A stretch of 64,000 nucleotides of DNA. Source: Notolepis coatsorum. Taxonomy: Eukaryota > Chordata > Actinopteri > Aulopiformes > Paralepididae. The stretch covers positions 96,787,776 to 96,851,775 of the forward strand of contig OZ020599.1 in the NCBI GenBank assembly GCA_963971535.1, given 5' to 3'. The notes under the pieces were generated by a model. It had not been told where the DNA came from. It saw only the letters and a list, made by a program, of their open reading frames with translations, and did no database searches. Shown here piece by piece: positions 8,205 through 51,997 of this stretch. The position numbers and the translations under genes are program-made. Within the stretch, counting starts at the first letter, position 1. Each line of letters opens with the position of its first letter.

Positions 8205-8357
8205 TAACCCTTTAACTGCCACACAGGACAGAAGGTTAACCCTTTACTATCATCACACAACCAACCGGCTGTCGTGTGGCAGTGAAAGGGTTAACCTTCT
8301 GTGTGTTGTCGCAGTGAAAGGGTTAACCGTTTGGCAGCGCGGCAGTGAAAGGGTTAA
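8205..8357. repeat. TTAA-bounded palindromic repeat, locus 1
   Basis: Units of ~29-35 bp of the form TTAACCCTTTCACTGCCACAC: two in forward orientation followed by three in reverse (GTGTGGCAGTGAAAGGGTTAA-like). The same layout appears at 27669-27852 and 44223-44571 plus 51911-51997. Confidence 0.75.
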
Positions 8358-15954: not shown

Positions 15955-16865
15955 CCACCCAACACGTAGTCTGATCCACCCAGCACGTATAGACTGATCC
16001 ACCCAGCACGTAGTCTGGTCCACCCAGCACGTATAGACTGATCCACCCAGCACGTATAGACTGATCCACCCAGCACGTAGTCTGATCCACCCAGCACGTA
16101 TAGACTGATCCACCCAGCACGTAGTCTGGTCCACCCAGCACGTATAGACTGATCCACCCAGCACGTAGTCTGATCCACCCAGCACCCAGACTGATCCACC
16201 CAGCACGTAGTCTGGTCCACCCAGCACGTATAGACTGATCCACCCAGCACGTAGTCTGGTCCACCCAGCACGTATAGACTGATCCACCCAGCACGTAGTC
16301 TGGTCCACCCAGCACCCAGACTGATCCACCCAGCACGTAGTCTGATCCACCCAGCATGTATAGACTGATCCACCCAGCACGTAGTCTGGTCCACCCAGCA
16401 CCCAGACTGATCCACCCAGCACGTAGTCTGGTCCACCCAGCACCAAGACTGATCCACCCAGCACGTAGTCTGGTCCACCCAGCACGTATAGACTGATCCA
16501 CCCAGCACGTAGTCTGGTCCACCCAGCACCCAGACTGATCCACCCAGCACCCAGACTGATCCACCCAGCACGTATAGACTGATCCACCCAGCACATAGTC
16601 TGGTCCACCCAGCACGTATAGACTGATCCACCCAGCACGTAGTCTGGTCCACCCAGCACGTATAGACTGATCCACCCAGCACGTATAGACTGATCCACCC
16701 AGCACGTAGTCTGATCCACCCAGCACGTATAGACTGATCCACCCAGCACACGTAGACCGGTCCACCCAGCACGCAGACTGATCCACCCAGCACGCAGACT
16801 GATCCACCCAGCACGTAGACTGATCCACCCAGCACATAGACTGATCCACCCAGCATATAGACTGA
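15955..16865. repeat. 21/23-bp minisatellite in asic1 intron
   Basis: About 40 units built on GATCCACCCAGCACGTA followed by TAGACT or GTCT, or CCAGACT; units are 21 or 23 bp. The whole array is free of stop codons in all three minus-strand frames (open runs of 404, 313 and 307 codons), which is a composition effect. No evidence that it is translated. Confidence 0.93.
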
Positions 16866-17212
16866 TCGTTAACCTCTGGCTGCATGCACCACCACCAGAG
16901 ACCACCAGGCTTCTCAACTCATCATCAAACCACGACTGCTGCTATTGAGCCTGGGCTGCTACACACCGATGTGCAAAACTGTTGCATACACTCTTTCACA
17001 CAAATCCCCTTTTCATATTATGTATATAGTGCTATAGTTATTTACCTCATACCATTCTGTCTGTGTATGTATATATATACATTTTCTTTATCTTTTTAAC
17101 TTTATATGACTAGTGCTCTATTGTGGCTTGTGCGCTTACTGCTGAGCTGACCTGTTTCTCTTGTCAAATGCAACATAATTACGTCTATGTCCTCCTATAA
17201 CGTGTTTCCTCA

Positions 17213-17329
<117 letters not shown>

Positions 17330-17364
17330 TCATCAGAGACATACTTCATAATAAAACACACAAC

Positions 17365-17740
17365 TAGGGATGCTCGATATTGGCTTTTTTACCGATACCG
17401 ATATACCGATATTGTCCAACTCTTAATTTCCGATACCGATATCAACCGATATCAACCGATACCGATATATGCAGGATTTCCCCCCTCCCCAAAAATGGAA
17501 TAATTTCAGGTAATTAACATTACATATCTCTTGTTGTGGAATTAACACAACATTATGCATACTTTTGACAATAAATAAAATCAGAATTTGTTCTTACTTG
17601 CTTGCCTGGGTAAATAAAGGTTATAGAAATGTAAAAAAAATAAGAATAAAAAAAAATATATGCCGATATTTTCCGATATCACATTCTAATGCCGATATCG
17701 GCCGATAATATCGGTAGGCCGATAATATCGGACATCCCTA
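17365..17740. mobile_element. hAT-like MITE in asic1 intron
   Basis: 376 bp with ends TAGGGATGCTCGATATTGGC and ...GGACATCCCTA. Flanked by a perfect 8-bp duplication, CACACAAC, at 17357-17364 and 17741-17748. Interior is rich in CCGATATCGG-like palindromic words. Non-coding. Confidence 0.88.
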
Positions 17741-17800
17741 CACACAACCAATCAAGTGGTCCATAAAAGACAATCGCACGTCTTTAGAATGAAAGTAGTG

Positions 17801-18650
17801 TCCCTCATCAGCGTAGATATACACCACCTAGAAGATAATATATATACAGTAATTAGAAGATAATAGATATACAGTACCTAGAAGATAATAGATACAGTAC
17901 CTAGAAGATAATAGATACAGTACCTAGAAGATAATAGATACAGTACCTAGAAGATAATAGATACAGTACCTAGAAGATAATAGATATACACCACCTAGAA
18001 TATAATAGATATACAACACCTAGAAGATCATAGATATACAGTAGAAGATAATATATATACAGTACCTAGAAGATAATAGATATACAGTACCTAGAAGATA
18101 ATAGATACAGTACCTAGAAGATCATATATATACACCACCTAGAATATAATAGATACAGTACCTAGAAGATAATAGATACAGTACCTAGAAGATAATAGAT
18201 ATAAAGTACCTAGAAGATAATAGATATACAGTAACTAGAAGATAATAGATATAAAGTACCTAGAAGATAATAGATATACAGCACCTAGAAGATAATAGAT
18301 ATAAAGTACCTAGAAGATAATAGATATAAAGTAACTAGAAGATAATAGATATAAAGTACCTAGAAGATAATAGATATAAAGTACCTAGAAGATAATAGAT
18401 ATACAGTAACTAGAAGATAATAGATATAAAGTACCTAGAAGATAATAGATATACAGCACCTAGAAGATAATATATATAAAGTACCTAGAAGATAATAGAT
18501 ATACAGTAACTAGAAGATAATAGATATACAGTAACTATAAGATAAGATATAAAGTACCTAGAAGATAATAGATATACAGCACCTAGAAGATAATAGATAT
18601 ACAGCACCTAGAAGATAATACATATACAGTGTCTCATCAGCGTAGATATA
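17801..18650. repeat. ~25-bp tandem array derived from an exon-intron junction
   Basis: More than 30 units of the type CTAGAAGATAATAGATATAC plus AGTAC. On the minus strand each unit contains CTTCTAG followed by GTACTG, GTACTTT or GTGCTG. The first form is identical to the end of the adjacent asic1 exon plus its splice donor. The left edge repeats the intron start (CTCATCAGCGTAGATATACA), which also stands at 18634-18653 beside the exon. Confidence 0.92.
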
Positions 18651-18656
18651 CAGTAC

Positions 18657-18748
18657 CTAGAAGTCCAGCTACTTCGTAAGCCTTCTTCTGTTCAATAGTC
18701 TCATAGTTTAGGGCCTCAAAGAAGATATCCAAAACCAGGATGTTGTCC
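18657..18748 (-). CDS. asic1: asic1 exon before TM2
   Basis: A 92-bp exon encoding [20 protein letters not shown] then [10 protein letters not shown], the segment of the extracellular domain leading into TM2. The acceptor is CAG before 18748. The donor is CTAG|GTACTG at 18657/18656, weak relative to consensus and copied many times in the flanking array. Phases 1 and 1 fit neighbours (YIA|D and LLG|D). Confidence 0.95.
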
Positions 18749-27668: not shown

Positions 27669-27852
27669 TTAACCCTTTCACTACCAAACTACAGAAGGTT
27701 AACCTTTTACTACCACACTACAGACGGATAACCTTTTGTAGTGTGGTTGTGAAAGGGTTAATACTTTGTCTTGTGGCAGTGAAAGGGTTAACCTTCTGTA
27801 TTGTCGCAGTGAAAGGCTTAACCCTTTGGTAGTGTGGTAGTGAAAAGGTTAA
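27669..27852. repeat. TTAA-bounded palindromic repeat, locus 2
   Basis: Starts TTAACCCTTTCACTACCAAA and ends TAGTGAAAAGGTTAA. Two forward units, then four reverse units of about 30 bp, each joined by TTAA or ATAA. Same layout as 8205-8357 and the repeat flanking the DIRS element. Confidence 0.8.
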
Positions 27853-28184
27853 TGTTCCGTTCCTCCGCAGTACAGTTCTGCCTCTGTAACGGGGAAGCCC
27901 GTGAGTCCATCCACAGTCACAGAAACAGGGGTGTTGACAAGTGACTGTGGCATTACGGGCTGGTAAGTTAAACTCACTTCCTCATAATAGGGTTAACAGA
28001 CGCATAGGTACGGTACATAGGGGTGAATTCACTTCTTAGTGCAGCGGCCTGTGTCGTCGCCCGCGGTGCGGGAGCATCCCCTGTTCGACTCCCCCTCGGG
28101 ACATTAACATTTAACATCAACACAACGCAGACCAATATGATCCGTCACACCTCCCTTTGTTACCGTAGAAACATAAATGGTAAA

Positions 28185-44222: not shown

Positions 44223-44571
44223 TTAACCCTTTCACTGCAAAAATACAGAAGGTTAACCCTTTCACTGCCACACTACAGACGGTTAACCGTGTAGTGTGGT
44301 AGTGAAAGGTTAACCGTCTGTTGCGTGGTAGTGAAAGGTTAACCGTGTAGTGTGGTAGTGAAAGGTTAACCTTCTGTAGTGTGGTAGTGAAAGGTTAACC
44401 GCGTAGTGTGGTAGTGAAAGGTTAACCGTCTGTAGTGTGGTGGTGAAAGGTTAACCGTGTAGTGTGGTAGTGAAAGGTTAACCTTCTGTAGTGTGGTAGT
44501 GAAAGGTTAACCTTCTGTAGTGTGGTAGTGAAAGGGTTAACCGTCTGTAGTGTGGTAGTGAAAGGGTTAAC
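44223..44571. repeat. TTAA-bounded palindromic repeat, locus 3 (left part)
   Basis: Two forward units (TTAACCCTTTCACTGCCACA...), then about ten reverse units of 27-30 bp (TTAACCTTCTGTAGTGTGGT plus AGTGAAAGG). The array continues at 51911-51997 after the DIRS element and ends GTGAAAGGGTTAA. Confidence 0.9.
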
Positions 44572-51846: not shown

Positions 51847-51910
51847 GAGATGAGGTATATCTCGATAGGCTTTAAGAGCGGGACGCGATGGCCAAGTACG
51901 ATAATATAAC

Positions 51911-51997
51911 CTTCTGTAGTGTGGTAGTGAAAGGTTAACCGTCTGTAGTGTGGTAGTGAAAGGTTACTCTTCTGTAGTGTGGTAGTGAAAGGGTTAA
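51911..51997. repeat. TTAA-bounded palindromic repeat, locus 3 (right part)
   Basis: Resumes CTTCTGTAGTGTGGTAGTGA after the DIRS element; joined to GGTTAAC at 44571 it forms a regular unit. Ends GTGAAAGGGTTAA. Confidence 0.88.

Follow-up and report, generated by a model that had tools for sequence, protein, structure and literature searches.

The window, as we call the whole 64,000-nucleotide stretch of Notolepis coatsorum DNA analyzed here, carries an ASIC1-type gene on its minus strand, whose exons, as located with a tblastn probe, descend from about 62.5 kb to 15.3 kb. One of them, an exon of 92 nt (18657..18748, minus strand), encodes a peptide that matched 13 distinct solved ASIC chains, with a best E value of 8.2e-14 (2qts). 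It ends in ...GGACTTCTAG, and its last base is the first base of a Gly codon. When this exon was used to search the genome (one assembly), its own locus was matched once, together with one 81% paralog. The next ASIC1-type exon, of 80 nt (17231..17310, minus strand), was recognized by protein match and compatible phase; it starts with GTGATATCGG after ...CTCCCAG, and the split codon G/GT is rejoined across the intron (here and below, a slash within a motif marks a splice junction). We take the 80-nt exon to encode TM2, the second transmembrane segment. The intron between the two exons is 1346 nt long (17311..18656, minus strand) and opens with the authentic 5' splice site TAG/GTACTGTAT (18648..18659, minus strand; first intron base 18656), which was assigned by phase and protein match. 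From the frame and the homology with the next exon, we infer that the productive donor is TAG/GTACTG at 18656. The intron divides into a stretch of 829 nt between its first base and the last junction copy of a tandem array, a transposon-like insertion of 376 nt, and the remaining 141 nt. The 376-bp transposon-like element (17365-17740, minus strand) has the ends TAGGGATG...CATCCCTA and is bordered by an 8-bp direct repeat, GTTGTGTG; we take it to resemble a short hAT-type element.

The array occupies positions 17804..18663 on the minus strand, both end copies included, and each copy consists of seven exon bases followed by the intron start. A previous sequence-only reading had described an exon ending CTTCTAG and an intron starting GTACTG on the minus strand, followed by more than 30 tandem units of about 25 bp. 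We found this junction at 18657/18656 and 33 copies of it thereafter, and TRF reported a 25-bp unit in 34.8 copies at 17814-18663. When the array was split by its junction motif, the true donor and the 33 junction copies reached down to 17827, and the 33 steps between junctions measured 25 nt in 23 cases, 23 nt in eight, and 21 nt in one, with a first step of 49 nt. The usual unit reads GTACTG TATATCTA TTAT CTTCTAG, in which 14 bases equal the intron start, seven equal the exon end, and four (TTAT) equal neither; mean identity to the consensus was 93% over 32 units. Within the window, the exact word CTTCTAGGTACTG occurred 11 times on the minus strand (the true site and 10 decoys) and not once on the plus strand, CTTCTAGGTACTT, the ...GTACTT variant, occurred eight times, and CTTCTAGGTGCTG, the ...GTGCTG variant, occurred four times, the last two on the minus strand only. 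AG/GT is retained in 26 of the 33 copies; six have TT at +1/+2, and one is without those bases. These motif counts agree with the many exact repeats and the GTGCTG, GTACTT, and broken +1 forms reported previously. The 13-mer that had been called exon derived is indeed copied exactly, but the match extends just seven bases into the exon, and TTAT matches neither side.

The two ends of the array share a 31-bp junction segment made of seven exon and 24 intron nucleotides. Its first copy lies at 18633..18663 and its last at 17804..17834, both on the minus strand, and the two are identical at 29 of 31 positions. Only the last copy continues into nonrepeat intron, and it again carries the first bases of the intron, as had been claimed for the far-left unit, with GTATATCTACGCTGATGAG present as in the first unit.

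We then searched the 3.42-Gb assembly with a 32-nt probe consisting of the unit plus CTTCTAG, allowing up to three mismatches. All 22 matches fell within the array, and the reversed 32-nt control probe gave no match in the same assembly; repeat counts from this search are lower bounds, with very common words skipped. Insertion of a dispersed repeat or of a satellite at the exon is therefore disfavored, the unit having been found only in this array. A protein search identified five ASIC loci in total, the four others lying on contigs C32, C9, C8, and C30. All four have the homologous intron, equal in position and phase to the array intron, and a tandem-repeat check detected an array of such units in none of the four. 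The check did detect other repeats in the paralog introns, namely a CTTT microsatellite, which takes up most of the intron on C32, and a small number of repeats with two copies; none resembles the unit. Since the intron is present in the four paralogs, and not absent from the homologues, the locus does not fit a new intron gained by tandem duplication. Separately, the paralog intron on contig C9 (L003) contains a tRNA-like, SINE-type stretch, GCGCAGTGGGCAAGGCGCTCGCC...GGGTTCGAGCCC, identified by eye.

Together, these observations support the proposal that the array grew by duplication of the exon-intron junction. Because the array ends share a segment, the unit occurs only here, and the paralogs are array free, an origin in place from the junction is the most likely one for the array. 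Most simply, the paralogs would have split first, and the duplication would then have occurred at the junction of the array-bearing copy. Copying may have run from exon to array, but the last bases of the exon could instead have been overwritten by the array, because all four paralogs differ there; only the exon copy of the junction must code for Leu-Leu-Gly. We envisage that a tandem duplication in place of the junction, taking in seven exon bases and about 14 to 24 intron bases, founded an intronic minisatellite. Later slippage or unequal exchange may then have enlarged it, and it would halt at the exon border because changes deeper in the exon would alter the protein.

Donor strength was scored with an approximate matrix of human frequencies, not MaxEnt, and U1 duplex energies were calculated with ViennaRNA. 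On this matrix the true donor is weak, with 2.62 bits of a maximum of 12.86; it ranks 20th, tied with ten identical copies, among the 100 GT sites in 18760-17300. The donors of the four paralogs (GTAGGT on C32, GTGAGA on C9, GTAAGA on both C8 and C30) are consensus-like and score 6.35 to 7.41 on the same approximate matrix. Seven further donors of the array gene, located by eye with the protein match as a guide, range on it from 4.22 to 10.49. Relative to the true donor, 11 of the 33 decoys score higher, 10 equal, and five lower on the approximate matrix, and seven are without AG/GT. U1 pairing ranks the decoys differently: three of the 33 copies, all GTGGTG, exceed the true donor, compared with 11 by the matrix, and ten equal it. 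In the eight copies of the GTACTT variant, the matrix score rises and U1 pairing falls. The description of dozens of look-alike donors thus holds at the level of sequence, with 26 of 33 copies bearing AG/GT, many of them no weaker than the true site by the approximate matrix. As candidate 3' splice sites, 12 of the 33 copies outscore the true acceptor (8.53) in a simple, approximate model. PMC11732430 describes two classes of 5' splice site, one preferring to pair with U5 loop 1 and the other with the U6 ACAGA box. We would place TAG/GTACTG in the U5-type class.

RNA structure offers the decoys no evident shelter. The segment 18700-18450, which takes in the exon end and roughly 200 nt from the start of the array RNA, folds less stably than its shuffled versions (z +2.70; all 200 shuffles folded as well or better), so the idea that structure hides the decoys in this segment is unsupported. 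There was also no clear sign of selection to disarm the decoys: five of 11 variant types fall in positions +1 to +6, which make up six of the 25 columns (p 0.096).

To follow the consequences of decoy use, we modelled the products. Each of the 33 decoys leads to one common stop, ...LLGTVYLR-stop, ahead of the exon that we presume to encode TM2, and the modelled products are without the second transmembrane segment because it would be encoded past that stop. A stop located more than 50 to 55 nt upstream of an exon junction is expected to trigger mRNA decay, and by this usual rule the decoy mRNAs should be decayed. The earlier suggestion that slippage is tolerated thanks to in-frame stops is therefore unsupported; because every modelled product meets the early stop, decoy use would be unproductive and not tolerated. 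By exon definition, the spliceosome would mostly take the first AG/GT, at the coding exon, and would select decoys rarely; the decoy products, sharing an early stop, would be removed by nonsense-mediated decay. The explanation as a whole, an in-place minisatellite born from the junction, with the first AG/GT mostly used, decoys used rarely, and their products decayed, is in our judgment probably correct, and its growth mechanism, first-site use, and decay of decoy products are the parts reached by inference.

A close counterpart has been described in people. According to De Roeck et al. 2018 (PMC5954066), human ABCA7 intron 18 carries a variable-number tandem repeat (VNTR) of 25-bp units; the exon 18 donor supplies the first GT of the repeat, which has about 12 to 427 copies in people and 23.7 units in the human reference. 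In the same paper, a decoy donor one unit downstream causes one-unit retention, a frameshift, and a stop in a minor isoform; two frameshift isoforms amount to 14 ± 6 and 2 ± 1%, the latter being the one-unit retention by order of the text, and transcripts with premature stops increase under cycloheximide. Skipping of the next exon ranges from 12 to 45% by tissue, the top value coming from one brain area. Longer arrays have more of it but the same levels of the two frameshift isoforms, and in brain, alternative products can outnumber the canonical one (PMC5954066). The ABCA7 result is repeated in PMC6660495. The ASIC1-type array likewise consists of 25-bp units that begin at the exon border, the first GT is the exon's own donor, the units repeat a donor-like GT (26 of 33 copies as AG/GT), and modelled splicing at a decoy one unit further on shifts the frame and meets a stop. 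It thus belongs to a kind already described in people. The ABCA7 repeat is C rich, human, and accompanied by RNA and length data, whereas the ASIC1-type array is A/T rich and known from sequence. Two features are added over ABCA7, which is compared here by its published description. The ASIC1-type unit includes seven exon bases, so that in most copies an acceptor directly abuts a donor; and the authentic donor is weak, scoring below that of each of the four paralogs. The minor decoy isoform of ABCA7 and its response to cycloheximide provide a functional precedent for rare decoy use followed by decay. Because the true donor is weak, with 11 of 33 decoys scoring higher and 10 equal, decoy use could exceed that in ABCA7. 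By analogy, such an array need not be harmless, because skipping of the next exon in ABCA7 is heavy and length dependent.

Other readings of the locus were weighed against this explanation. Tandem repeats are common here, with 49 TRF rows in the window, some of them overlapping, and an ordinary A/T-rich minisatellite might simply abut the exon and resemble its end by accident. However, the seven exon bases are matched exactly and in register, which has a chance of about 4^-7 (CTTCTAG occurs three times elsewhere on the minus strand of the window), and the 31-bp segment is present at both ends; on these grounds we rejected chance similarity, which strikes us as scarcely credible. A better case can be made that the array overwrote the donor, with unit conversion or contraction replacing a GTRAG-like site by GTACTG in a gene copy that splices poorly or is under relaxed constraint. 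All four paralog donors carry G at +5 and have the higher scores given above, and among the five loci A at −2 (CTA G) is confined to the array copy; the difference is synonymous and would suit an AG/GT site. The exons at 18748-18657 and 17310-17231 are nevertheless intact and conserved, and the last copy, which adjoins nonrepeat intron, is also without the +5 G (GTGGTG), which could mean that the donor was already weak before the array formed; we regard overwriting as possible but doubtful. The array might also be a regulatory device, with ASIC1 output set by donor competition or splicing-factor binding and repeat number acting as a dial. The effect of ABCA7 VNTR length on next-exon skipping offers a parallel, and the poor folding of 18700-18450 makes the sites look accessible, but the weak clustering of variant types at +1 to +6 gives no clear evidence of selection on the decoys, and the common GTACTT variant improves the matrix score yet weakens U1 pairing. 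We consider such a device unlikely.

A more elaborate possibility treats each unit as a 3' splice site fused to a 5' splice site (TTATCTTCTAG/GTACTG), making the array self-correcting and the intron removable stepwise. Splicing inside the array would drop whole units and restore the exon end, sometimes with GTACTT, the better donor by matrix, and the GT...AG remnant left by a wrongly chosen donor could be removed in a second round of splicing. The retention of AG/GT in 26 of 33 units and the 12 copies that outscore the true acceptor are consistent with this, and in 10 of 33 cases the remnant from the true donor to the copy's AG is at least 74 nt long, ends in AG, and has a YTNAY motif 18 to 45 nt upstream, eight of these 10 also having GT next. 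On the other hand, the donors are weak, and the other 23 of the 33 remnants are too short, do not end in AG, or have no branch-like motif in that range. Two published systems bear on this scheme in both directions. Zhu and Niu 2013 (PMC3629103) described two fission-yeast genes with 24-nt tandem repeats that acquired introns built from the repeats, and those repeats resemble the present units in being short and carrying proto-splice sites. However, these proto-sites are AGGC and not AGGT (a summary of the case in PMC4974935 gives AGGT), the authors themselves call for more work on one of the two introns, and exon-shared repeats there became new introns, whereas here a preexisting intron common to five loci was enlarged. 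Recursive splicing ratchet points in Drosophila are defined by juxtaposed AG/GT (PMC8605326), and the array likewise holds intronic AG/GT sites that would restore a donor. Ratchet points, as described there, act in long introns, require a cryptic exon, and mostly restore strong donors, in contrast to the many weak sites of this 1.3-kb intron, where the best restored donor scores 3.82 bits of a maximum of 12.86 on the approximate matrix. If stepwise removal were true, mis-chosen donors would be repaired by a second splicing step, but we think it improbable.

The array is a natural experiment in 5' splice site choice: the spliceosome has to settle on one among more than 20 near-identical candidates, the true site is weak, and the paralogous introns of this genome can serve as controls. 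The array also suggests how such repeats may start, namely by duplication of the junction itself. A minisatellite in IFI6 (6-16) reportedly contains multiple splice donor sites, going by the title of the work of Turri et al. in 1995, cited in PMC4526556, PMC3618361, and PMC2572611, and to that extent resembles the present array as a repeat that supplies several splice donors. With this array, the ABCA7 type of repeat, in which length has been tied to splicing and to disease risk in humans, gains a second anatomy. A VNTR in miR-137 alters splicing too, but its novel donors sit in the pre-miRNA, outside the repeat, according to PMC6692358.

Additional tandem repeats were observed in the window. 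TRF reported a second large minisatellite at 15955-16867, in the next intron of the array gene, with about 42 copies of a 21-bp unit. Because its printed consensus is without AGGT on either strand, it does not look junction derived. Arrays with units of about 29 bp lie at 8278-8357, 27669-27871, 44223-44571, and 51907-51997; they are TAACCTTCTGTAGTGTGGTAGTGAAAGG-like (TRF, with the likeness judged by eye) and scattered through the window as if one minisatellite family had dispersed.
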